Source: Phycisphaerales bacterium
Lineage (GTDB): Bacteria; Planctomycetota; Phycisphaerae; Phycisphaerales; SM1A02
Direction: 5' to 3'
Assembly: GCA_029268515.1 (NCBI GenBank)
Contig: JAQWNP010000020.1
Coordinates: 1 to 64,000 of the forward strand
DNA length: 64,000 nucleotides
The notes beneath the pieces were generated by a model. The model saw only the letters and a list, made by a program, of their open reading frames with translations, was not told the origin of the DNA and searched no databases. A program made the position numbers and the translations under genes. Shown piece after piece: positions 2,768-22,786 of the stretch (positions within the stretch are counted from its first letter, which is position 1; each line of letters begins with the position of its first letter).

Positions 2768-5098
2768 TCAGGGACATTCTCCATCAACGCCTTTCATCGC
2801 TCCTCCGACCGGACCGGCCGTGACCGGGTTTACTCCAGTCAAACTAATGACTTGGCAAGGCGAAGTTGGAATCCATGAATAGACTGGACTGACTTGGCCG
2901 GTCATAAATACACGGTGGGCAGGAAATCCATCATGCGTACCAGTGATACGGTAGGTTGCTGTCAGCATCCCGGCCTGTGGATCACACTGCTGCATGACCT
3001 CAATATTGATCTGTCCATCAATATGTGGAATCACTTTAATGTCGATATAAGGCCCCCAGATAAGCACTCCAGGGAGCCAAACGAGAGCTGTAGGTATTCT
3101 GATTCGCCTAATATTAAATGGTGCGGAATGTATTTCAAACAGGAATTTAGATGATCGAAACAAGATCCCTTGGTTTAAATGACCTGTGAGTCTACCACTG
3201 ACGAATGTGACATTGGTATCAGCTGTGTTCGGTCTGACCGGACATCCTGTAAAGATTGGGTAACGAAGCCATTTGGTGATTGGTGTGCAGTACTGCATTC
3301 CAGCCGGCATTGGTTTGGCATACCCCAAACCTAATGTCGATGGTGTCACGGAAGCATGCCATTGGCTCATAATGTTAAAGTTGAACCAGGCATTGGCCGC
3401 AATTTCTGCACCCACCAACACGCGATCTGTTTGCAACCCAGGCCCATCGCCACCACCACCGATGACGAGGGTCCCGAATGTACTATTGTCAACAAGTGGC
3501 TTTGGCATGATAGGCAATCCCAACCATGGAATACCAGCACGGTATCTAAATTCACCACGGCAATACTTCTGCACAGTTACGTCCCATGAGTAGACACAAC
3601 CGTTGGCATCGGTGGCCTGTACGGTCACCACACCTTCTACATCTTCGAGTGCTTCGATGTAGTAAGCACACTTGCCACTATATGGATTGACGGTGTCAAG
3701 ATCATTAAACAAAAGATTCTGACCCGAGGTAACTGCCCACTGAATGCTGCTACAGCTCTGACCGCAGGTGAAGTCAATATAAATATCATCTTTATCACCC
3801 ATGTAGCGTGGCCCATCAAGACAAGGCGCCGGACATTCACAATCGTCGGGTACCCCATTGCCATCTAGATCTTGCTCGCATTCATCGAGAATACCATCTC
3901 CATCACAATCATTTTCAGGACCGGTGACTTCACATACATCGAGCACACCGTTGTTATTACAGTCATTGCCTGGAAGTTCACAACTGTCTTTGACACCATT
4001 GCCATCGCAATCATCATCTGAACCACCAGTACCACCCTCTTCACATTCGTCAAGTACACCATTGTCATCACAGTCGAGCTCTGGCTGAGATTCATCAGGA
4101 ATGCCATCTTGATTGCAATCAGGGGCACCATTAAAGATCTCACACGCATCGATGATGCCATCGCCATCGGTATCTTCGATGGGCGTTCCTTCGGGAAGAA
4201 AAATATCATTAATACCATCGACACCACAATCAAATGCAAGACCACCAGGTCCACCGCTTCCACCACTGCCGTTACCATTACCACTACCTCCTCCCGCACC
4301 ACCACCCGGTGGATCGGTCTCATCAGGCTCACCTGAACGAGGCAAGCAGTTGTTGCATGGATCACCTGGATCAAGAAGCAACTGCGAGGGCCAATCCACT
4401 AATGCATACATCTGACTTGCAATCTGGTAAACCAAGTCTGCTTGATGAAGATGAGGCCGCTCACCTATTGCATCCATTAATCTATTTATTGATGTGAGAC
4501 CCAGCAATAGATCATCAGGATCAATGAGGCCATTTTCATTGAGATCGAGCTGCTGTCGATGTTCGATGCCTGACAACACCTCATTATTCATCCAACCAAG
4601 TAGCTGCCCATCAACCATATCCCACACAGCAACCACAGGTGCATAGGTCTCAGGTGTTTCTTGATACCAACCACCTACAAGAAGATCATGATGGCCATCT
4701 TGGTTGTAGTCTCTTACCACCGACATATGAACACCCAGATTAAACACGAGCGGATGTTCAATGTTGATATGAAACGAAGGCGTTCTGCCAACAATAGATG
4801 CTTTGTTTCTTACATCTAAATAGACCATTACATTTCCTGACGTGCCGAGCTGGCCAGGATCTGCCACAAGAAGATCTTGAATACCATCTCGATTGACGTC
4901 GGTGATCAGATGGTTTATCGATTGCTGTTGACTTGCATCACGAAGAGATGAAGTTGTCGTTTGCGGCTGGACCACCTGACTAACCACGAACTGAGATAGT
5001 GATAATGCAAGCATGCCGGCCATGAGGCCAATTTTGTGCCTTGTCATACAACCATTTTGATGGGATCTGCTAGAGATGCTTTCTTGATAATGATCCAT
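2768..5098 (-). CDS. Secreted FG-GAP / EF-hand / TSP3-repeat / Ig-like protein (paralogue of 9792-11915)
   Basis: A 776-residue exported protein. After a hydrophobic segment at residues 24-41 come FG-GAP/VCBS-like calcium loops at about 65-140 (DVNRDGIQDLLVADPGQLG, then DYNQDGHHDLLVGGW) and an EF-hand-like loop at about 184-198 (LDLNENGLIDPDDLLLG). A Gly/Ser/Asn linker covers 264-286, a run of thrombospondin-type-3 repeats 307-421 (DCDGDGILDECEQD type), and a Cys-containing Ig-like domain about 424-513. The C-terminal domain of about 260 residues has no family I recognise and ends near DGFPAHRVFMTG. The start has GGAG 8 bases upstream of ATG. Multiple Ca2+ loops suggest an extracellular structural or adhesive role; no catalytic motif is visible. 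It shares domain order and clear sequence similarity with the gene at 9792-11915. Confidence 0.85.
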   Translation of the reverse strand: MDHYQESISSRSHQNGCMTRHKIGLMAGMLALSLSQFVVSQVVQPQTTTSSLRDASQQQSINHLITDVNRDGIQDLLVADPGQLGTSGNVMVYLDVRNKASIVGRTPSFHINIEHPLVFNLGVHMSVVRDYNQDGHHDLLVGGWYQETPETYAPVVAVWDMVDGQLLGWMNNEVLSGIEHRQQLDLNENGLIDPDDLLLGLTSINRLMDAIGERPHLHQADLVYQIASQMYALVDWPSQLLLDPGDPCNNCLPRSGEPDETDPPGGGAGGGSGNGNGSGGSGGPGGLAFDCGVDGINDIFLPEGTPIEDTDGDGIIDACEIFNGAPDCNQDGIPDESQPELDCDDNGVLDECEEGGTGGSDDDCDGNGVKDSCELPGNDCNNNGVLDVCEVTGPENDCDGDGILDECEQDLDGNGVPDDCECPAPCLDGPRYMGDKDDIYIDFTCGQSCSSIQWAVTSGQNLLFNDLDTVNPYSGKCAYYIEALEDVEGVVTVQATDANGCVYSWDVTVQKYCRGEFRYRAGIPWLGLPIMPKPLVDNSTFGTLVIGGGGDGPGLQTDRVLVGAEIAANAWFNFNIMSQWHASVTPSTLGLGYAKPMPAGMQYCTPITKWLRYPIFTGCPVRPNTADTNVTFVSGRLTGHLNQGILFRSSKFLFEIHSAPFNIRRIRIPTALVWLPGVLIWGPYIDIKVIPHIDGQINIEVMQQCDPQAGMLTATYRITGTHDGFPAHRVFMTGQVSPVYSWIPTSPCQVISLTGVNPVTAGPVGGAMKGVDGECP

Positions 5099-6443: not shown

Positions 6444-6697
6444 TTTCGAGGGCTCCTTTAGAGTTGATATGTGGTAACGATACCTCAGACATCCGCATGT
6501 GTTGTAACGGCTAGGTAACAGGCTCCCCGAATGGGGGCGATGGCATTATGGATAAAAAACCGCTGGCATGCGTTTTAACATGCGGCGCATGGTTCCACCA
6601 TTGGACAAAATTAGCCGTTGTTTTCCAATGATCTTCTCGCCGCAGGGTATGAATATACGTGCCAAAACCATCTCAGCAGCATAGGAGACAATTGAAC

Positions 6698-8191
6698 ATG
6701 AAACGATCTCGGAACATCTTGTTCGCTAGTGGAATAATAGGCATCACAACCTTCACTGCACTGGCTGACTCCAATAATATTGTGGCCTCATTTGATTCAT
6801 TGGTACTCGATAAATCTTCTCTTCTCGCAAAGGATCTCGACGGCGATTGTAAGATCTCACCTAATGACCTCGCCATCGCACTCGCGATGCGCATTGACCT
6901 TAATGCAGAGAGATCCACTGACCTTGATGGGGATGATTTCTATTCAGGTGCAGATGTCTTACTTTTGATTCAGAAGTCAATGCTTACGAGCATCAATGAT
7001 GTTGATGGAAATGGAACTGTCAATGGACGCGACTTAGTGAGGCTGACTTCAGAATTCTCGAGCACCAATGGTCAGGCTGATGTTAATGGTGACCAAAAAG
7101 TTGACGCAAGAGATCTACGACCCATCCTTGAAAACATTGGGCATACCGTAGTATCAGATGTGGAGTTACTGTCCTATGCGGTCTTTGACCGCTTCATGCA
7201 CTACCAAGAGCAAAAAGCTTCCGGCCAACTGAGGATTGCATCTTGCAAGGACCCCGTACCTACACCCTGGGAGAGCTATGCCAACAGAAGCGCTGCATCT
7301 TCTCCTGGTGGTTCTGGCGCATCAGGCAACTCCGCAGGTATCTCTTCTGAAGATAGCGATACTTGGCCAGACAACGATCACTCGATTGGAGTGAGTCGAA
7401 CTTATCCGCCAAATACACACCATTGGTGGACCAGTTTGTGGACAACAACACACATGTGGTACTCAAGCGGAAACTGGCCAGGAAATCACCTATACACCTT
7501 GACGATTAACTGGCAACCGACGCAGGTGGGAAGCCATGGAACGTTGAATTCTGAAAACGAAGCATGGCCATCGAATCACACGTTCTTAGTTTCCAAAGAC
7601 TGGACACCACAAGTTCCTGTCGGCCATGGACTGACCCATAGTGGTGTACCAATTCACCAAACAGAGGTCAGTGAACGCTGGCCACCTAATCATGACCGCA
7701 TTGCAAGCAATACTTGGCCACCTCCTGAGCATGCCTCTGGTCCATCGGGTCAGACTGTTCATGACAACGCGGTCTCAGGCCTTTGGCCACCAAGCCACCA
7801 TTACGAGGAATCTAGACTTGGCATCGGACCTGTGATAGGTGATCACACCCAACTTGTTTCTAATAGCTATGCCCCGCATTTGAAATCTATCAGCCGAAAA
7901 TACCCGCCGAATCATGGCCAGTTAGTATCGAGCACGTGGAATCCTGGCGCCCACAATGGAAATATTAGTGATAACTGGCCCGCAAATCACTCATCACAAG
8001 CGTCAAACTACTGGCCAGATATTTATCCAGGCATTTGGCCACCCAACCATAACGTTGAACAATCAAATAGTTGGGGTGAACCACAGCCTCCTGGGCCAGG
8101 CCCCTTCCCGCCGGATCACGCATGGATACCAAGTGCCAATCAGGTTATGGATCTTCTTCCTGACATTCCTGTGATTCCCGATGGCCCCTGA
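6698..8191 (+). CDS. Secreted dockerin-like protein with tandem W-P-x-N-H repeats (first of a pair)
   Basis: ATG at 6698 is chosen over the upstream GTG at 6659 because AGGAG at 6683-6687 sits 10 bases before it and a signal peptide follows directly (MKRSRNILFASGIIGITT). The mature part starts with four EF-hand-like loops arranged as two dockerin-like pairs (DLDGDCKISPNDLAIAL, DLDGDDFYSGADVLLLI, DVDGNGTVNGRDLVRL, DVNGDQKVDARDLRPIL) at about residues 45-150. A Ser/Gly-rich linker follows. From about residue 223 to 459 there is a degenerate tandem repeat built on S-x-x-W-P-P-N-H-x(3-5)-S-x-x-W, with at least ten W/Y-P-x-N-H-type cores; the C-terminus is Pro-rich. I know of no named family for the repeat. 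The next gene (58-base gap, same strand) carries two of the same motifs, so the two products probably act together. Confidence 0.8.
   Translation: MKRSRNILFASGIIGITTFTALADSNNIVASFDSLVLDKSSLLAKDLDGDCKISPNDLAIALAMRIDLNAERSTDLDGDDFYSGADVLLLIQKSMLTSINDVDGNGTVNGRDLVRLTSEFSSTNGQADVNGDQKVDARDLRPILENIGHTVVSDVELLSYAVFDRFMHYQEQKASGQLRIASCKDPVPTPWESYANRSAASSPGGSGASGNSAGISSEDSDTWPDNDHSIGVSRTYPPNTHHWWTSLWTTTHMWYSSGNWPGNHLYTLTINWQPTQVGSHGTLNSENEAWPSNHTFLVSKDWTPQVPVGHGLTHSGVPIHQTEVSERWPPNHDRIASNTWPPPEHASGPSGQTVHDNAVSGLWPPSHHYEESRLGIGPVIGDHTQLVSNSYAPHLKSISRKYPPNHGQLVSSTWNPGAHNGNISDNWPANHSSQASNYWPDIYPGIWPPNHNVEQSNSWGEPQPPGPGPFPPDHAWIPSANQVMDLLPDIPVIPDGP
7361..8076 (+). repeat. Coding tandem repeat, W-P-x-N-H unit
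   Basis: Within the preceding gene, codons for W/Y-P-(P/A/S/G)-N-H recur at spacings of roughly 14-20 residues, linked by short Ser/Gly/Thr-rich spacers that usually contain a second His or Ser and an aromatic residue. The units are degenerate at both protein and DNA level, so the array is old or under selection and is not a recent slippage expansion. Confidence 0.75.
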
Positions 8192-8249
8192 TTGAGACTT
8201 AATCTGTGGCATGTCCTTCATTTCATGATCTTCATCGAGGTATCAGTCC

Positions 8250-9596
8250 ATGCATTTACTCTCTCTAGTCATCTCGACCTTAGTTATCACCGCGATCGCT
8301 GTTGCTCAACCACCCAGTACGGTACTACTGAATCAGGATTTGCTCGAACATTGGTGGGAAGGCACAGAGCGCCAAGATATGACGTTGGATAGCTCTCTTT
8401 CCTCTGAAGGCCAAGCCTTACGTGCTGCCTCTACAACTCTGACCCGAACCGTTGATTTCAACGAACCTCGATCTGTCTTACGACTGATCCTGGAAACCAC
8501 TGGTGCTCAAGCAACGGTTTATCCCACAGAGCGATACTTCTATTACAAGTTCGATCTTGGGCATCGTCGTGTTAGTGGCAACCTTCGCTTTACAGAAATT
8601 GAAGATGGCTTTCTGCATATAGGCTACTTCGATGACTTCATGCCGCGAGGTGCCATTCAAATCGGCACCTTCATCGATGGCCAAGACATTTCGATTGAAG
8701 ATGGACCGCTTCCCAATCAATACATCGTGAGCTTTGAAGACTTGCGTACGGTCTTTACTCTCAACACCCTACCATTTGATAGAGCTGATGAACTTTCCAT
8801 ACTTGAAGGCGAAAACTACATTTCAGGCATTCTCGATGAGTCTGGGCATACATTACACCTTCTCTATAACACCATCGATCACATGTTCTTTTATGTTCGA
8901 TCAGTCTCTGCTGCTCAACCAGAGAGCTTTACCAACTACAAGACTCCCGGCGGAATGGATCTAAAGATTGGGACGCGATCTCGCTTTGTCTTTTATCTCG
9001 ATCCAGAGACCCAACGTGAAATCTTGGTTGGTGTCCTCAATGCCAATGTCCAAAGCAATGGCTATTTCGATGGCCCTTTTGATCAAGTACCACCTCGCCT
9101 GGATATCAAACCACTTCTAGAGGCAGCGTATCCCTATATAAAACTCGGAAGCGGCATTGATGCCCACGGGAACTTTTTGAATGGTCTCTCGCAGCGAGTA
9201 GCCATCTCTCCCTACCAAGCATATGACTCTATTGAAAAGCTCGCGACCACCCTCGATCAACTCTACCGGCCAGCGAGCGATGGTCCATTGCGATGGACAT
9301 TTCTGTGTTATGAGTGGAAACGAGACTATCACAAGCAGTTGGCAGCTATGGAAGCACAAAACAGAACTGCCGCTGAGAATCGTCAGGCAGGCGACCATAT
9401 TCACAACCGAGCGACCAGCCAATCCTGGCCGGCAAATCATTGGGGCGATGCGAGCCGGCAATGGGTCGGGCACACGCTCGATTCCAGTCGCTCTTGGACG
9501 CCTAATCACAAGGTGGATACGAGCAAGACATCAACTACACCCGATGTTTCCGAAGATCCGGAACAAAAAACTCTTGCTACGGCAGTGGTCCCCTGA
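8250..9596 (+). CDS. Secreted protein of unknown function ending in two W-P-x-N-H motifs (second of the pair)
   Basis: 448 residues. A signal peptide (MHLLSLVISTLVITAIAVAQ) is followed by a globular region of about 350 residues rich in beta strands and acidic and aromatic residues, in which I recognise no catalytic motif. A charged helix follows at about 355-380 (KRDYHKQLAAMEAQNRTAAE). The C-terminal tail contains W-P-A-N-H at 393-397 and W-T-P-N-H at 416-420, both in the S-x-x-W context used by the upstream gene. GAGG lies about 10 bases before the ATG. It follows the repeat gene by 58 bases on the same strand, so an operon is likely. Confidence 0.75.
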   Translation: MHLLSLVISTLVITAIAVAQPPSTVLLNQDLLEHWWEGTERQDMTLDSSLSSEGQALRAASTTLTRTVDFNEPRSVLRLILETTGAQATVYPTERYFYYKFDLGHRRVSGNLRFTEIEDGFLHIGYFDDFMPRGAIQIGTFIDGQDISIEDGPLPNQYIVSFEDLRTVFTLNTLPFDRADELSILEGENYISGILDESGHTLHLLYNTIDHMFFYVRSVSAAQPESFTNYKTPGGMDLKIGTRSRFVFYLDPETQREILVGVLNANVQSNGYFDGPFDQVPPRLDIKPLLEAAYPYIKLGSGIDAHGNFLNGLSQRVAISPYQAYDSIEKLATTLDQLYRPASDGPLRWTFLCYEWKRDYHKQLAAMEAQNRTAAENRQAGDHIHNRATSQSWPANHWGDASRQWVGHTLDSSRSWTPNHKVDTSKTSTTPDVSEDPEQKTLATAVVP

Positions 9597-9663: not shown

Positions 9664-9717
9664 AGCCGTCTTTAAATGATCTTCTCACATTGATTGATCA
9701 CCAAAAAGAAAGCCGCG
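9664..9717. repeat. Direct repeat, copy 1 (flanks the 9792-11915 gene)
   Basis: This segment starts AGCCGTCTTTAAATGATC and matches 12069-12125 almost base for base: one substitution near the start, then a few changed or inserted bases before the shared GAAAGCCGCG end. The two copies are in the same orientation about 2.4 kb apart, one on each side of the FG-GAP paralogue. Confidence 0.8.
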
Positions 9718-9744
9718 GCGAACATTGAACCTGTTCGCCGCGGC
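9712..9744 (-). terminator. Rho-independent terminator of the 9792-11915 gene
   Basis: GCCGCGGCGAAC at 9712-9723 and GTTCGCCGCGGC at 9733-9744 form a perfect 12-bp stem with a 9-base loop. Read on the minus strand, the stem is followed by TTTCTTTTTGG, a good U-tract. It lies 47 bases past the stop of the minus-strand gene at 9792. Confidence 0.9.
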
Positions 9745-9791
9745 CTGAAGTAAAGCTCCACGTATCAATCATTCGATGGGTGCTGCTTAGA

Positions 9792-11915
9792 TCATGGGCA
9801 TGTGCCTGCAACGCCGATCATTCGCCCCGTTCTTGCCGGCGCAATCGGAATATCCAATGTGCCTGCTAAATTGACGATTTCATTAGGCATTGCTGGTATC
9901 CATGAGTAGACCGGATTCGCTTGACCTGTCATGAATACGCGATGTGCAGGAAAACCATCATGATTGCCAGTGATGGTATACGTTGCAGGTAGCATCCCGG
10001 TGTTTGGATCACAACGCTGGGCGACCCTAATCTTAATTTGCCCATCGATTGCGGGAACAGGCCCCACATCTAATGCCGGAAGAGTGACAGGTATCCCCCA
10101 AACCCATATTCTAATCGGAGGCGTCACAAGGTTAGGTATGTTGAATGGTGATCCATGGATCATAAACTCGAAATGTGATGATCTGGCCAAGACACCATTG
10201 TTGAGATGGCCTGTGACAAATGGACCAGCCACAAGTGTGACATTCGTATTGACTATCGCCGGTGGGATAACTGGTGCAACATAGACTGGAAACGCAAGCG
10301 TGTTGGCAGGCCAAGGACACGCAGCTGAATTCGCTGGCGTAAATGGAACGGCATAAGGCGGCGGACCACCACCCGCAATGTGGCCGAATCCAACCGCAGA
10401 GCGACGATAAAAGTGCTGCCCATTTTGCCCCGCGGGGCTGAGTATTGAAAAGTTGAACCAGCCATTGGCGGCAATATCCGAGCCCACCATTAGTCGATCT
10501 GTTGTGAGGGCCAGCCCATCACCAGAGACACCGAAGGCATAAGAACCAGATATGGGAATCGTGCCAGGTATGGGATGATCCGCCAGAGCGATCCCCGCAA
10601 TACCACTCCAGGGAATGCCTGCACGATATTTGAACTGACCTTGACAATACCGCTGTACTGTAATTGTCCAGGTATACACACATCCAATTGAATCCGTTGC
10701 TTGAACCGTCACTGAACCTGCAACATCTTCGAGCGCTCGAATGTAATAAGCGCAGTTACCCGAATATGGATTTTGCACTGGTTGATGGGCATCAAGAAGT
10801 TCAGCACCACTGATTATTTTCCACTGGATTTTGTCACATGCTTCCCAGCAGGTGAAATCGATATACACATTATCTTTGTCACCCATATACAACGGCCCCT
10901 CGAGACAATCTGCAGCACAAGCACAATCGTCAGGGATGCCATCGCGGTCTAAATCCTCTTCACATGAATCCGGCACACCATCGCCATCACAATCTTCGAT
11001 GGCAATACCAACTGGCCATGAGGTGTCAGGAATTCCATCCCCATCACAGTCAACGAGAATTTCTTCAGGATCCACACCATCGCCATCACCATGCTCATGG
11101 TCATCTGGCTCCCCACCATAATCAACATCCTCACCACCAGACTGATCGTTTTCATCGCCAACTTCCCAAGGTTCTGGACAGTCGAAACAATCAGCTAAGG
11201 GACTGACCTCAGGCGCTTCGACCACGCTTGAGTACATGTGCATCATGATTTCATTGGCAAACTCGCCATACTCAAGATCCAGCGACGCGCCGATTGCTGT
11301 GTTTTCTTGAGTTGCAAGCGTCACAGATCGAACCAAGTCATCTGAATCAATAAATCCATTCTCGTTGAGATCAAGCTGCTGTCGTTTCTGCATACCCGCC
11401 AGGCTCTCAGCATCAAACCAACCCAGGAGCTGTCTCTGATGTAGATCCCAGACTGCAGCGACCGGCGCGTATACGTCTACAGCCGTCTGATGCCAGCCGG
11501 ATACCAGCAGATCGTTGTAACCGTCGTTGTTGTAATCCCTCTCAAAAGAGAGATGAGCCCCGAGGTTCACCACCACTGCATTCTGATTATTTTGGATGAC
11601 CAGATCAGGCTTGCCTTTCGCGACCGCGTCTCGACCATTGGCCCCGAAATAAACTGACACTTGGCCGATTTCGCCGAACGTGCCGGGATCAGCCAATACC
11701 AGGTCCTGTTGACCATCTTCGTTGACATCTACGTGCAACACGGTGCTCGACGATGGCTGCGCAGAGAGACGCTGATTGACTGTCGCATCCCTCTGGCCAA
11801 AGGAGGAATGGGACAATGCCAAAACCAGCGAACAACCGATTATTCCGCTGATGACGCTTGAATTTTTCAATTGGATATGTTGGCCATGTGGAATGGCTTC
11901 TGAACACTTCAACAT
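9792..11915 (-). CDS. Secreted FG-GAP / EF-hand / TSP3-repeat / Ig-like protein (paralogue of 2768-5098)
   Basis: 707 residues with the same domain order as its paralogue: signal segment (about 18-40), FG-GAP-like loops (DVNEDGQQDLVLADPGTFGE, DYNNDGYNDLLVSGW), an EF-hand loop (LDLNENGFIDSDDLV), a shorter acidic/TSP3 block (DCDGDGVPDSCEEDLDRDG), a Cys-containing Ig-like domain with MGDKDNVYIDFTC, and the same unrecognised C-terminal domain ending near DGFPAHRVFMTG. The linker is acidic here where the paralogue has a Gly-rich one. GAGG lies 9 bases upstream of the ATG. The gene is bracketed by a near-identical direct repeat (9664-9717 and 12069-12125), which suggests it moved or duplicated as a unit. 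Confidence 0.85.
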   Translation of the reverse strand: MLKCSEAIPHGQHIQLKNSSVISGIIGCSLVLALSHSSFGQRDATVNQRLSAQPSSSTVLHVDVNEDGQQDLVLADPGTFGEIGQVSVYFGANGRDAVAKGKPDLVIQNNQNAVVVNLGAHLSFERDYNNDGYNDLLVSGWHQTAVDVYAPVAAVWDLHQRQLLGWFDAESLAGMQKRQQLDLNENGFIDSDDLVRSVTLATQENTAIGASLDLEYGEFANEIMMHMYSSVVEAPEVSPLADCFDCPEPWEVGDENDQSGGEDVDYGGEPDDHEHGDGDGVDPEEILVDCDGDGIPDTSWPVGIAIEDCDGDGVPDSCEEDLDRDGIPDDCACAADCLEGPLYMGDKDNVYIDFTCWEACDKIQWKIISGAELLDAHQPVQNPYSGNCAYYIRALEDVAGSVTVQATDSIGCVYTWTITVQRYCQGQFKYRAGIPWSGIAGIALADHPIPGTIPISGSYAFGVSGDGLALTTDRLMVGSDIAANGWFNFSILSPAGQNGQHFYRRSAVGFGHIAGGGPPPYAVPFTPANSAACPWPANTLAFPVYVAPVIPPAIVNTNVTLVAGPFVTGHLNNGVLARSSHFEFMIHGSPFNIPNLVTPPIRIWVWGIPVTLPALDVGPVPAIDGQIKIRVAQRCDPNTGMLPATYTITGNHDGFPAHRVFMTGQANPVYSWIPAMPNEIVNLAGTLDIPIAPARTGRMIGVAGTCP

Positions 11916-14728: not shown

Positions 14729-16828
14729 TTAGCCTGCCAACACACGTCCCACCTGTCCACGACGTTTCTGCTTCGCTGGGGCCGGCGCCGCCCGCGCTGG
14801 AGCATCGCAACTGTTGCCATAGTTGATCAGTAGCTGCGAGAAATCTTGAACGTCAACCGTCAAATCACCGTTGATATCAGCAGACAAGCCACTGCCACTT
14901 TGACCGAACTGAATCAACAGCTCACTAAAGTCTGCAAGGTCGACCACCAAGTCGCCGTTGATGTCAGCTGGGCAGATTACTGGACAGTCTTCCAGAAATT
15001 CGTTGGCGACATCACTACTAAATAGGCCTTCAATGTCGTTGGGCTGATTCTCACAGAATGTTGAACCATTAATGGTTGGATCACCCAAGAACGTGAAGAT
15101 GCCACCACCACTTTTGAACCCAGTGCTATTGCGTTTGAACGAGCAGTCTTGGATCAGTGGGCTGCCATCTAAAATGTACATAGCGCCGCCCTGACTTACT
15201 GAATGATTCTCAACAAAGTTGCAGTGACGCACCGTTGGGCTACTGCTTTCAGCATACACCCCGGCACCATGAAAGCTTGAACCATTGGTAATGGTAAAAC
15301 CTTCAATGATGGTCGCTGCGGTTTCGCCTCCGACGCAATTTACGACGCCAAACGTAGCCTCACCATCAAGAATGGTTTGGGCAGCACCATGTGAAGAGCG
15401 AATGGTGATTGGCTTGCTACCAGTGGCAATGACTGCGGTGTCGTCGCCAGAGACCGTCCATGTACCTGGTCCAACCAGCACTGTATCTCCATACCCTGCA
15501 TCAACGATGGCCTCTTGAATGGTGTTGTATTCGCCAGGCACATGAAGAACACCATCACCGGTTGGCGACTGACAGTGATCTGGCACCCCATCACCATCAA
15601 CATCATTACAGCCAAAGTCAACACACGCCCCGCCACCGTCGATCCAATAGCCTCGAATTTGTGGGCCGACATTTCCACATAAGACCGTATTGATCAGACG
15701 GGTCGATCGATTTGTGAACAGTCCACCACTCAGGTTGTTGACGACGCGGCAATCTTCATAGGTGGCCTGGGCAGGACCAATGTCCCAGATACCCCCACCA
15801 CTATTTTTTTCGATATCACAACGCTCAAACAGAGGCACTTCACTACCGGCGGTAAAAATCGCAAAGCCACCGACCTGATTGGCCACCTGACAGTCTGCAA
15901 TGCTGCCGGTACAGCTACGGACGTACATCGCCGCGCCATAACTCAAGGCTGTATTCAAAACGAAGTTGGTATTGTCCATCGCAAGGCTGCCACCATCAAA
16001 GTAAAGACCGCCACCCTGACCTCCCTGCGATCGATTGTTTTCAAACTGGCATCCAGAGATCGTCACAGCGCTCGATTCACTGCGCAATCCGCCACCATAG
16101 AGATTCCCATAGTTGTTTGAAAATACACATTGATTGAGCACCACTTGGCTCACGGTCACATACATGCCACCACCATGATCGGTGGCCGAGTTGTCATTAA
16201 AGATGCACCCGTTAAAAGTCGGGCTACTGTCATCGCTGTACACCGCTCCACCAGAATCAGTACTCGATTGATTACCCTCAAAGACACAGTCAGTGAGCGT
16301 TGGCGAGCTGCTTTGCCCAATGTATAAAGCCCCGCCAGAAAAGCCGCCCCAGTTTTGTTCAAACTTGCACTGCTCAAGTTGAGCTGAAGAGTTCAACATC
16401 TCGACCGCGCCGCCGACAGCGCTGGTGTTTTCAATAAAGCTAACATTTCGAAGTATTGGACTCGAGTTATGGATCAGCATTCCCGCACCTGCAGGCGATA
16501 CCAAACCATTGGCAATATTGATATGTTCAAGGATGGTTGATGCCGATTCGCCGCTGGTGCATAAGACAACCGTACCATTGTCCTGGCCATCAATTGTAAC
16601 CAACGAGGCGCCCAGCACATCAACTGCGCCGCGAATGGTGACGGCCCGGCCACTAAGATCAACATTAAACTCGTTATACGTGCCTTCAGCAATGAGAATG
16701 AGATCTCCATCAACCGAAGCATCAATGGCGCCCTGAATCGACGTGTGATCAAGGGGCACATGAATAGTGTCTCCAGCAGCAGAGACAGATAAAATGACCG
16801 TAAAGATTGAAGCTACAAGATATCGCAC
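14729..16828 (-). CDS. Secreted double beta-helix protein with dockerin-like C-terminus
   Basis: 699 residues starting at GTG 16828, supported by GAAGGAG 9 bases upstream and a signal peptide (MRYLVASIFTVILSVSAAG). Two beta-helix domains are present. The first opens with TSIQGAIDASVDGDLILIAEG (about 29-49) and runs to about 400. A DVDGDGVPDHCQ loop separates it from a second helix that opens with NTIQEAIVDAGYGDTVLVGP. Rungs contain the typical GGA/GGG-(M/L)-Y elements of polymorphic-membrane-protein-like repeats. A full dockerin-like pair occupies about 619-674, followed by CDAPARAA and a Lys/Arg-rich tail. Probably a cell-surface or extracellular protein; carbohydrate binding is plausible but not shown. 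Confidence 0.8.
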   Translation of the reverse strand: MRYLVASIFTVILSVSAAGDTIHVPLDHTSIQGAIDASVDGDLILIAEGTYNEFNVDLSGRAVTIRGAVDVLGASLVTIDGQDNGTVVLCTSGESASTILEHINIANGLVSPAGAGMLIHNSSPILRNVSFIENTSAVGGAVEMLNSSAQLEQCKFEQNWGGFSGGALYIGQSSSPTLTDCVFEGNQSSTDSGGAVYSDDSSPTFNGCIFNDNSATDHGGGMYVTVSQVVLNQCVFSNNYGNLYGGGLRSESSAVTISGCQFENNRSQGGQGGGLYFDGGSLAMDNTNFVLNTALSYGAAMYVRSCTGSIADCQVANQVGGFAIFTAGSEVPLFERCDIEKNSGGGIWDIGPAQATYEDCRVVNNLSGGLFTNRSTRLINTVLCGNVGPQIRGYWIDGGGACVDFGCNDVDGDGVPDHCQSPTGDGVLHVPGEYNTIQEAIVDAGYGDTVLVGPGTWTVSGDDTAVIATGSKPITIRSSHGAAQTILDGEATFGVVNCVGGETAATIIEGFTITNGSSFHGAGVYAESSSPTVRHCNFVENHSVSQGGAMYILDGSPLIQDCSFKRNSTGFKSGGGIFTFLGDPTINGSTFCENQPNDIEGLFSSDVANEFLEDCPVICPADINGDLVVDLADFSELLIQFGQSGSGLSADINGDLTVDVQDFSQLLINYGNSCDAPARAAPAPAKQKRRGQVGRVLAG

Positions 16829-19595: not shown

Positions 19596-22403
19596 TCAGT
19601 TTTCATTTGTGACTTCAATACCGTTAATGAACACTTCTGTTGGTTCACTGGCCTGACCAGCACCTTCAAAACCAATTTGTGCACTTTCACCACTTTGCAA
19701 TGTGTCATCCCATGTCGGATGAATAACCGTGACCACACCATTGACTTGAGATTGGAACTGAGAGGCCCAAGCATTAACCACGGTGTAGTTGGCATTCCAA
19801 CTGGCAGTCCAATCTTCAAGTGGCTGATCGGAATTATTGGTGATAAACAAGTCGGCTGTAAATCCGCCCTGCCATACATCATTTTGCACAAAGCGATAAG
19901 TGATACCACTGATCTGACATGCATCAGGAACGCCATCACTGTCACTGTCATCTAATCCATTGGTAATGTCACAGCTATCAGGAACACCATTTCCATTACA
20001 GTCTGCCACAAGTCCCTGAGCAATCGCGCAGGCATCAGCAGTGCCATCGTTATCACAATCATCGAATGATTGGCAGCCATCTGGAATCGAGTCGCCGTCA
20101 CAATCGGCGTCTCCGTTCGCTATTTCATAGCTGTCAGGAAGACCATCCCCATCACAGTCTGCTTGACACTCATCAAGCTGGCCGTTGCCATCAATGTCCG
20201 CGGCGCCACTGGCAATCTCATCAACATCAGCAATGCCATTGTCATTACAGTCAAGTAGTCCCTGCTCACCATAAATGAGAATACCAGCATCGTAGACAGG
20301 TATCATTTCAGTTTTTGCAATGGCTGACTGACCAAAAGGCAAATCAGCCAGTGATGGGTCATTGCTCGAATCCCAAACATCTGCGGCGGCATTACTCAGG
20401 CCAATAGTAAATTCAGCATCTCGACGATAGCGATTGCCGAATCCCGGCGTGATGTCTTGCCCAGCGTAGGAGACCTCAACGAAGTAAAGATTGCTTGAGG
20501 CATTCGCGATCACCAAGGAACCGAGGCTTCCACCATCAAGGAAGCCACTGTCAATGACGACATCTTCTACGTCATATCCTGCACTAAATACTTCTGAAAG
20601 ATCAACATAGATGCGATAGGCCAGCGATTCACTGGGTCGCGCCGGAAAATTACTGCGGTTATTAATGCGGCATCGAATGGTTGTTGATGAGTTGCCATCG
20701 GAAATGATTGAGGCTTCAACAAACATCTCCTTGCCATAGGGATCTTCCTTGGGAGGAAAGTTCGGTAGCGTTGTGCCATTATATTCTCGCGCCATGCGAC
20801 CAAGCGCTGCGACGAAGCCGGCGTTGTAATCACACGTTACTTCATTCCGCACATAGTCACTTCGCACATCAGCAAAGTCATAATCGTCTGCAGAGGCAGG
20901 GCCACCGACCAAAGCACCCCATAATTCATTGCGGTTGGGATCTGGATCCTCGATCCAATTGTTCCACGATCCATGAGCACTACGGTGGTGAGGCTTCAGG
21001 GGCGGATTATTACCAAAACCACACACGTAACTTGAGTTGCGAGGATTGTCACCCAACATGTAGTTGATTTGCTGTTCACCAAACTGCTGGTAACGCCCAT
21101 CAGGATCTTCAACCGTGTCGGCATAGACAAAGGCAATGAACGCTGTATTGGCAGCATACCTGAGTGATCCCCATTCACTAAGCCAAGCAAGCCCACCAGG
21201 TGTGTAAGCCACACTGCCACCTGGCAACCAGTTGCCAAGGTGATCTTCCATATAGTCTTTGTACTCTTGCTTGCCGGTCAGTCCAGCGAGCAGACAAGCA
21301 GCGCCGTTGGTCTTGCCATCCCATGAATGTGACCAGTTCGGATCTTCATTGGCTGAGTCAAAATGAGCCTCTGCTTGATCAAGATAGGTTTGCTCGCCGG
21401 TTGCTCGGTAGATCCATGCCGCCGACCAAGCAAGTTCATCAAAGTATCCAGTCCAAGAGTCATAGTAGTTGTCAATTTCTGGAATCGAGTCGGTGTAAGT
21501 TCCACGATAGGTATCCGCAAACGCGTACAGTTCACGTGCGTGCTGCAAAAGCGTGGCGGCATAGTCAGGATCAGTCTCTTCAAAGAGAATTGATGCCGCC
21601 GCAAGAAATGCAGCTGACTCACCGGCTGGTTCAGAGCCTGGATTTTCTGCGTTGAGCCACCAGACCCATTCCAGCGGGTAATAGTAGCCATCCTCTGGCT
21701 GAGGCACATCGGGTTCAACTGGTCCCCAGGCAATGTGCGACGGCGCTCCATCACCAATCTGACCACAAAAGACATTGGGCTCTGGATGGGCTGCAATACA
21801 CCAGTCGGCATGCCATCGCAGCGTTTCGAGAAGTCGATCCATTTGATCAGAGGCGTTGAAGCCATCTCCGAATTCAATACCACCCCACGCCATAATGGTC
21901 ATCGCTGAACTAATTGGTAAAACAAACGTCGAGGTGTCACCAGCATCCATATAACGATTGATAATCGCTGGATCAAAATCATATTGTCCATTGCGCTGCT
22001 GAATAAGTTCAATTTCGTCGTAACAGTCACCGCGCCAGTTCAGTGAATAATCGTCAGGTAGATCACCGGAGCGCTGGGCATCATAAAAGGTAACTGCTTT
22101 CTGCAGAGCCTCGTGATAATTAAACGGCCCCTCAACAATCTCTGGGCATTGACCGAATGCGACTAAAAACAGAGAAAAATCGCCGAGATCAACCTGCCCA
22201 CTATTATCGAGGTCGTAAGTTGAATTTGTCGATCCCCAGGCAACCAAGAACTGACTGAAATCGTTGATATCTACAGCACCACTCTGGTCAAAATCAGCGG
22301 GACATGCTGATTGACGACCATCGGCCCTTAAGCCATGTGTCGAAAATGCGATAGCAAAAGCAGCCATGCCACTGGTGCAATACAAGCGATTGAATTTTTT
22401 CAT
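19596..22403 (-). CDS. Modular GH9 endoglucanase: N-terminal dockerin-like, GH9, CBM3, TSP3 repeats, CBM2
   Basis: ATG at 22403 is chosen because AGGAG lies 5 bases upstream and MKKFNRLYC opens a signal peptide; the frame itself extends to 22457. Order, numbered from 22403: dockerin-like pair about 34-86; GH9 catalytic domain about 94-550; CBM3-like domain about 559-717; TSP3 calcium repeats about 718-830; CBM2-like domain about 833-935. GH9 hallmarks are LPDDYSLNWRGD, the D-A-G-D motif at 153-156 (catalytic base/nucleophile-positioning Asp residues), a P-H-H-R segment at 471-474, and R-N-E-V-T-C-D-Y-N-A-G with the acid Glu at about 521. The enzyme should hydrolyse internal beta-1,4 bonds of cellulose outside the cell. 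Two different cellulose-binding modules and an N-terminal dockerin on one chain is an unusual layout. Confidence 0.92.
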   Translation of the reverse strand: MKKFNRLYCTSGMAAFAIAFSTHGLRADGRQSACPADFDQSGAVDINDFSQFLVAWGSTNSTYDLDNSGQVDLGDFSLFLVAFGQCPEIVEGPFNYHEALQKAVTFYDAQRSGDLPDDYSLNWRGDCYDEIELIQQRNGQYDFDPAIINRYMDAGDTSTFVLPISSAMTIMAWGGIEFGDGFNASDQMDRLLETLRWHADWCIAAHPEPNVFCGQIGDGAPSHIAWGPVEPDVPQPEDGYYYPLEWVWWLNAENPGSEPAGESAAFLAAASILFEETDPDYAATLLQHARELYAFADTYRGTYTDSIPEIDNYYDSWTGYFDELAWSAAWIYRATGEQTYLDQAEAHFDSANEDPNWSHSWDGKTNGAACLLAGLTGKQEYKDYMEDHLGNWLPGGSVAYTPGGLAWLSEWGSLRYAANTAFIAFVYADTVEDPDGRYQQFGEQQINYMLGDNPRNSSYVCGFGNNPPLKPHHRSAHGSWNNWIEDPDPNRNELWGALVGGPASADDYDFADVRSDYVRNEVTCDYNAGFVAALGRMAREYNGTTLPNFPPKEDPYGKEMFVEASIISDGNSSTTIRCRINNRSNFPARPSESLAYRIYVDLSEVFSAGYDVEDVVIDSGFLDGGSLGSLVIANASSNLYFVEVSYAGQDITPGFGNRYRRDAEFTIGLSNAAADVWDSSNDPSLADLPFGQSAIAKTEMIPVYDAGILIYGEQGLLDCNDNGIADVDEIASGAADIDGNGQLDECQADCDGDGLPDSYEIANGDADCDGDSIPDGCQSFDDCDNDGTADACAIAQGLVADCNGNGVPDSCDITNGLDDSDSDGVPDACQISGITYRFVQNDVWQGGFTADLFITNNSDQPLEDWTASWNANYTVVNAWASQFQSQVNGVVTVIHPTWDDTLQSGESAQIGFEGAGQASEPTEVFINGIEVTNEN

Positions 22404-22786
22404 CATTGCTCCTGTACCCCACCAACGTCCTTCTGTCTCTCTTCGAGGCTTCCTCATCCTCAGGGATCACTCCATGTCCTTTACGATTCTGGCCTCGGTG
22501 TGTTCCTAGAGATTGCCAAAACACCCCTCACACGCTGAAATTGAATATTGAGCCAGCGAGTTGGATCTAGAGAGAATCTACTGAGGGTCGATTTAAAAGC
22601 AGCCCAGGCAAGTGGAAAAGCTTTTTATGTTGGTTAGAACGCAACGGTGGTCGATTTCATCGCTGCATAGCATGTAAACAGTCGTTTACTGAAGCGGCAA
22701 GATTTGTTGCCAAAACCAACCTCATTGTTGATTTTGGAAACTCAGCTACAGCAGTCATAAAATGCCAACAGCGCTATTGTGACACG
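22404..22786. other. Upstream region of the cellulase gene
   Basis: 383 bases between yaaA and the cellulase. A short perfect dyad GTAAAC-AGTC-GTTTAC lies at 22674-22689 and could be an operator, but nothing else supports it. No gene seen. Confidence 0.35.

Follow-up and report, generated by a model that had tools for sequence, protein, structure and literature searches.

Spaced histidines and a conserved partner domain: a putative exported two-part module in planctomycetes

Why should two neighbouring genes, one coding for a long repeat protein and the other for a globular one, carry the same short W-P-x-N-H motif? The question is raised by a 64,000-nucleotide stretch of DNA from a Phycisphaerales bacterium (GenBank assembly GCA_029268515.1, contig JAQWNP010000020.1, positions 1 to 64,000), called the window throughout, in which the two genes, here gene 1 and gene 2, lie on the same strand with 58 bases between them, the very gap given in a first-pass annotation made from the sequence alone. 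That annotation described a two-protein system with a repeat-rich and a globular partner, and the description has worn well: both proteins look exported, and they are kept together across families and on one contig that looks archaeal. On the matter it raised of whether genomes with one gene have the other, we find a histidine-periodic partner at 20 of 20 gene-2 loci, and the genomes reached by repeat-profile searches (G000, G199 and G635) all have gene 2. Judged by sequence, the module is new at the level of the repeat, the domain and the pairing, mechanism being left aside.

Which parts make up the pair?

Gene 1, 6698 to 8191, forward strand: repeat protein, exported-looking, 497 amino acids from an ATG (open reading frame)
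Dockerin-like region of gene 1, 6833 to 7114, forward strand: four EF-type calcium loops read from the sequence; Dockerin type I (PF00404) at 31.1 bits, cut-off 22.9
Repeat array of gene 1, 7358 to 8125, forward strand: about 19 units H-x4-[S/T], 13 with an aromatic residue at +8; turns mostly WPPNH-like
Gene 2, 8250 to 9596, forward strand: globular protein, exported-looking, no known family, 448 amino acids
Conserved core of gene 2, 8433 to 9374, forward strand: VYPTE ... DESG ... DGPFDQVPP ... GxDxHGNF ... SPYxxY, from alignments and a beta-rich model
C-terminal tail of gene 2, 9402 to 9530, forward strand: gene-1 repeat copies WPANH and WTPNH; matches at 9402-9473 and 9471-9530 to a repeat profile built from units that include these same two copies

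Gene 1, with 497 codons before its stop and an alternative in-frame GTG at 6659, begins with an N-terminus that by eye resembles a signal and runs through the calcium loops into the repeat array, and gene 2 passes from a signal-like N-terminus through its family-less core to the tail. The four EF-hand loops announced ahead of the repeats can be read by eye at residues 46-57, 74-85, 101-112 and 128-139 (approximate limits), two of them being caught by a strict pattern as well, and the two tail copies sit where they had been placed, WPANH at residues 393-397 and WTPNH at 416-420.

Is the repeat real, and what is its unit?

At least ten degenerate copies had been counted in gene 1, and the array proves richer than that, its units numbering about 19. 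Strict [WYF]P..H motifs occur eight times in the protein, whereas 1000 shuffles average 0.18 and never exceed 2. Across 19 repeat proteins drawn from 16 loci (a sister copy, L078, was left out, and some proteins were taken from stop to stop rather than from a chosen start codon), the fixed block of the unit, H-x4-[S/T]-x2-[W/Y/F], is found 225 times against 6.8 in shuffles, and Ser or Thr stands at +5 from 322 of the 377 histidines of the repeat regions. Around the 159 strict motifs in these proteins, Ser/Thr is present at +5 in 96%, Trp at +8 in 70% and Asn before the His in 48%, so that of the Trp, Asn and His originally called fixed, Trp and His stand, joined by Ser/Thr and by a Pro in the turn, and Asn does not. 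The distance from a Trp to the next His is variable, four being by far the commonest value, whereas the block from His to Trp is fixed, which suggests that His-to-Trp is the rigid piece of the unit and WPPNH an insertion-tolerant turn of variable length. Successive strict motifs are mostly 12 or 19-27 residues apart.

Comparison with a sister genome points the same way. Gene 1 is 90% identical there, with a ratio of non-synonymous to synonymous substitution rates (dN/dS) of 0.18, and gene 2 is 96% identical across the 282 residues available before the sister contig ends, with a dN/dS of 0.115; in the repeat region 25 changes have accumulated in 277 residues, none of them at the 69 anchor positions, where about 6 would be expected by proportion. 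Eleven columns of the unit are common to all 14 aligned gene-1-type proteins, an agreement in unit position that serves as support only, since the underlying alignment itself favours it. Shuffles, purifying selection and relatives together rule out an artefact or a chance pattern. Tandem Repeats Finder returns no row at a score of 30 for the window repeat, which rules out a young tandem duplication of DNA and makes the repeat look old. The statement that no described repeat family of this form is known also holds good, the repeat being without a Pfam, NCBIfam or PDB sequence match above cut-off; its predicted fold scores low, with a predicted local distance difference test (pLDDT) of 34.5, a value that does not demonstrate disorder. 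A single DNA pattern for WPxNH was dropped as too loose, having given 62 matches against 43 for a reversed control in 99 relatives other than G000 and G001.

Does gene 2 always keep a histidine-periodic partner?

The 20 loci are the window, L078-L090 and L105-L110, after removal of same-contig copies (L078 is G001:C432 and L088 is G199:C150); 19 come from planctomycete-type genomes and one, L090, from the archaeal-looking contig. At 17 of them, the window counted, a WPxNH repeat gene is the partner; in 16 cases it lies immediately upstream in the same orientation, and in L090, where all 17 units of the repeat protein are exactly 12 residues apart, it is tail to tail with gene 2. Three loci (L083, L086 and L106) have two repeat genes in a row, and the intergenic gaps at the 14 loci measured range from -7 to 173 bases, depending on the start codons chosen.

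The remaining three loci consist of one fusion and two with heptad-His proteins. In the fusion (L108, genome G577) the gene-2 domain forms the front of a protein of 1378 residues with, in its middle, 20 units at an exact spacing of 20 residues; each unit has two His, and 40 of these 40 have Ser/Thr at +5. The 20-residue units of L108 (3233-7366, reverse strand) are of the KHNSGSTWHVNGQSFIPPGS type; on one side of the repeat is a segment whose MAM match stays below cut-off (18.4 bits against 26.9), and on the other an end rich in Cys and Asp. At L109 (G144) one small exported-looking His protein starts on the gene-2 stop codon and a second lies two genes upstream, and at L110 (G165) a small exported-looking heptad-His protein lies directly upstream of gene 2. 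Of the 20 His-to-His steps in these three proteins 13 equal 7, and Ser/Thr follows at +4 after 21 of the 23 His; the period is reached by 0 of 5000 shuffles for two of them and has a P of 0.022 for the third. The period of the partner thus differs between loci (7, 12 or 20), while the gene-2 core is common to them all.

Histidine is the one residue shared by all three periods, and this brings in the strongest rival account, namely that the periodic His bind an extracellular metal (Zn, Cu, Ni or Fe), singly or as bridges from one array to another, with Ser/Thr orienting the His ring and the core serving as a membrane-side receptor or transfer protein. The composition of the 19 repeat regions, which hold only four Cys overall and between 3 and 24 Lys plus Arg each, would suit such a role, and staphylococcal Aap offers a known case of repeats that pair in a Zn-dependent manner (PMC9802226). 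Metal binding alone, however, needs neither the Ser/Thr nor the Trp, yet Ser/Thr at its fixed distance, and to a lesser degree Trp, is conserved along with His; nor is there a metal-binding or transport family above cut-off in the nine neighbouring window proteins, the other loci not having been scanned for such families. A beta-helix protein of the window (14729-16828) has a NosD copper-protein match of 20.6 bits, below the cut-off of 23.6. We regard this account as unlikely, though metal binding is compatible with the docking or acting model that we favour below.

What kind of protein is gene 2?

The core of gene 2 is strongly conserved, with 34 invariant columns in a 14-row alignment and 37 in a 15-row one (start Met counted) among members down to 25% identity with the window, and the invariant residues include many polar ones (D, E, H, N, R and Q), as expected of a putative binding or catalytic site. 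Its predicted model is beta-rich with a confident core (pLDDT 73.3, predicted template modelling score 0.66). When that model was compared with PDB and viral models, Foldseek gave nothing at an expectation value (E) of 0.001 or below, and VIA nothing at Z of 5 or above; for the beta-propeller in particular, the best Foldseek E was 3e-3 with a template modelling score of 0.10-0.14, and the best VIA Z was 3.4 over 50 residues at a root-mean-square deviation of 2.3. Neither the core nor the repeat of the window proteins has any Pfam or NCBIfam match above cut-off (the same is true of the L090 repeat protein in Pfam), and no PDB sequence falls below E 0.18 for the core. Below-threshold matches were left unused: PcRGLX_1st, at 17.1 bits (cut-off 22.1) in the gene-2 tail, DDRGK, and RecU in one member (E 0.0011).

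The many invariant polar residues would fit an exported enzyme that modifies the Ser/Thr or His of the repeats, for example by glycosylation or cross-linking, with its own tail as a recruiting copy, and so would the combination of one constant domain with changing His/Ser repeat partners and the cis fusion in G577. However, window gene 2 matches no enzyme family above cut-off, its relatives give only scattered weak matches, and the PDB sequence search and structure comparison just described offer nothing significant, so that we consider such an enzyme very unlikely.

What of the tail, the feature that first tied the two genes together? Within window gene 2 alone its motif is weak, with one strict match against a shuffle mean of 0.07 and a narrower pattern reached by 70 of 5000 shuffles. 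Across relatives it is kept, at least one strict motif being present in 14 of 16 gene-2 proteins (window counted) and none in L089 and L090, and by eye the first tail unit, WPANHWG, is more alike among members than gene-1 units are. The three remote members (L108-L110) have no such tail. The first-pass annotation had named gene 2 found widely without gene 1 and without its C-terminal motifs as one finding that would refute its idea, and no refutation came of it: gene 2 without a histidine-periodic partner was not seen at any of the 20 loci, but the C-terminal motifs are missing in five (L089, L090 and L108-L110) of the 19 whose gene-2 end is readable.

This bears directly on a curli-like account, in which gene 1 would polymerise outside the cell and gene 2 would be an anchored nucleator whose same-repeat tail starts and holds the fibre. 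Two adjacent exported-looking proteins with one common imperfect repeat and fixed residues are what such an account calls for, fixed nine-residue blocks and variable turns would fit beta-strand and turn, and the curli nucleator CsgB, which nucleates the fibre, is surface-attached and homologous to CsgA (PMC9268375). Set against this, relatives keep the positions of the units and, by eye, a C-terminal cap, in a manner that looks like a fixed folded domain, no curlin model matches gene 1 at E of 1 or below, and co-assembly of like repeats would explain the common tail but not the five tail-less loci. We think it quite unlikely.

How gene 2 may be held at the cell surface seems to vary. A loose lipobox pattern occurs in 8 of 19 gene-2 N-termini, some at an unlikely place; by eye about nine members have a likely lipid-anchor Cys, and others start with a plain signal-like or membrane-spanning segment.

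How might the two parts work together?

Our favoured explanation, which we advance tentatively and at somewhat less than an even chance, is that the gene pair forms an exported two-part module whose core docks on, or acts on, H...S/T motifs. Gene 2 would supply the unchanging element, a core rich in beta structure for which several relatives seem to have a membrane attachment, either a lipid anchor or an N-terminal helix, and gene 1 the variable part, a long polypeptide presenting regularly spaced His, most of them with Ser/Thr five residues on (four in the heptad versions). The core may recognise the local H...S/T motif, the repeat protein then being a multivalent ligand or substrate for many core copies, and the short repeat tail of gene 2 might serve to link core proteins to one another or to fix them on the scaffold. 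Observed are the pairing, the common motif, the conservation of its anchors, a period that shifts with the motif kept, and a fusion in one chain; export (judged by eye from the N-termini), direct binding, display at the membrane and the part played by the tail are inferred. A common core with partners of such different period (7, 12 and 20) favours recognition of a local motif over matching of a whole fold; indeed, the core and the H...S/T spacing are constant while period, turn, anchor and calcium loops all vary, a contrast suggesting that the core acts on a local motif many times along its partner. In its broader form, which we also put forward with reserve as a little short of evenly balanced, the proposal is of a module, undescribed in these searches, that planctomycetes share with at least one archaeon: a single conserved exported-looking domain would work on partners that have in common only strictly spaced His followed by Ser/Thr, with a freely evolving period and with the partner encoded by a neighbour gene or in the same chain.

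Several observations count against this explanation. L089 and L090 have no tail and yet retain their repeat neighbour, so the tail is not needed for partnership with the repeat protein, and in the window model the tail has low confidence (block means of 31-53 over the last 70 residues). The heptad cases are the weakest of the 20 loci: the proteins were picked out post hoc, one of the three shows a weak period, and the two contigs concerned are short (10 and 3 kb). The same scan, over ten loci and the window, turned up several other open frames with at least four His pairs at period 7, many of them antisense by position, including frames in L107, L073 and L085 and at 4213-4494 and 10856-11203 of the window, these last two both antisense to Asp-rich flanking genes. 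In favour of the heptad proteins, they lie on the gene-2 strand, two share N-terminal sequence by eye, and Ser/Thr at +4 accompanies the His. Finally, short repeat profiles are insensitive, and for the 298-genome sample described below, the presence of other gene-2 genomes was not established.

How widespread is the module, and where has it travelled?

Gene 2 is rare and patchy. Profile and sequence searches found it in 2 of 101 relatives, 4 of 392 genomes of the phylum, 9 of 397 of the class (8 of 397 once a weak short match is excluded) and 1 of 87 of the archaeal phylum; the excluded match, in G659, covers model positions 286-307 only (E 2.4e-4, a 121-residue frame) and was discarded as chance. 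One scan of genome contigs yielded 13 loci, and since it rests on two peptide patterns, distant members may have escaped it. Searches around the three remote genomes, with matches in 1 of 1, 2 of 40 and 1 of 1 genomes, brought up only loci that were previously known. Repeat-profile searches found the repeat in 2 of 392 genomes (G000 and G199) and in 2 of 298 (G000 and G635). Genome G635 carries two divergent copies of the module (L105 and L106), one with tandem repeat genes.

The L090 contig looks archaeal because genes on it also code for a proteasome subunit, a beta-CASP protein of the FttA type that includes a KH domain, and an isomerase of the FKBP26 type. In the gene-2 tree, which has several long branches and few firm forks, L090 groups with the three remote bacterial members against 15 others (support 95/97), and transfer of gene 2 between domains is likely. 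The record of L086 is labelled as the cyanobacterium Leptolyngbya sp. PLA1, a label that may be wrong; its gene 2 groups with planctomycete ones (99/100, in a group of five). No gene-2 relative appeared in viral contigs (two scans) or in plasmids, and a mobile or viral origin was set aside on that ground.

What lies around the pair?

The pair is flanked by two paralogous exported-looking proteins (window 2768-5098 and 9792-11915, both on the reverse strand) that are 48% identical over 458 columns and have weak FG-GAP matches below cut-off; two smaller genes lie between the first of these and gene 1. Downstream of gene 2, before the convergent gene is reached, there is a terminator-like hairpin (9710-9746, reverse strand; 15 pairs, 10 of them G-C), from a scan that overall gave 3 sites against 3.1 in shuffles and hence no excess. 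About 10 kb from the dockerin-bearing pair, at 19596-22457 on the reverse strand, is a large family 9 glycosyl hydrolase that carries a cellulose-binding domain.

Why does it matter, and which known systems come closest?

The pair brings together a repeat family and a protein domain that are both new and that are linked by neighbourhood, common tail and fusion, and with one domain facing many evenly spaced short motifs it can be tested directly. Should the H...S/T motif be bound or charged by the core, planctomycetes would have a new means of building a regular array outside the cell, perhaps one of metal ions. In the literature, the matches listed for WPPNH, WPANH and WPSNH look unrelated by title, core and repeat sequence words give no match, and among the matches listed on planctomycete dockerins, on curli with planctomycetes and on surface repeats there is nothing on this pair.

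A defence system was rejected, PADLOC giving no match at E 0.01 for the two window proteins and the L090 gene 2. Several known systems share a feature with the pair. WD40 propellers have a network of His, Ser/Thr and Trp as a structural signature, but their unit is about 40 residues as against 12 here, and neither window protein has a WD40 match in Pfam at E of 1 or below. The dockerin domain of window gene 1, which passes the Pfam cut-off, recalls the cellulosome; however, Pfam gives no cohesin match for gene 2 (the rest of the genome was not scanned for cohesins), and the pairing persists in L086b and L090, where a strict pattern scan found no EF loop. PF00404 passes in L085, falls below cut-off in L079, L105 and L107 and has no match in L090, these being the five further repeat proteins compared. 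Nor does dockerin similarity explain the pair: some match to gene 1 occurs in 65 of the 101 relatives, but among the matches listed, own and sister genome aside, these lie mainly over the EF part, one in G043 reaching residue 260 at 26% identity with two internal stops.

Closer in architecture are curli (CsgA/CsgB) and Fap (FapC/FapB), in which adjacent exported proteins comprise one with a long imperfect repeat and a partner that carries this repeat as well and acts at the surface. Two adjacent proteins with one common imperfect repeat are found here too, their export being suggested by N-termini read by eye; gene 2 differs in its large unrelated core, and no Csg or Fap family occurs among the nine window neighbours scanned. 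The anchors of the curlin repeat differ from the H, S and W anchors of this one, and Pfam gives no curlin match at E of 1 or below in L090 either. Aap and SasG, with their B-repeats, are likewise surface repeat proteins, Zn-dependent pairing being a feature of Aap (PMC9802226), but their repeats are large G5-E domains, as against the 12-residue units here. By analogy, then, we would place curli and Fap as the closest known systems in layout, and Aap as the closest for metal-dependent pairing of repeats.

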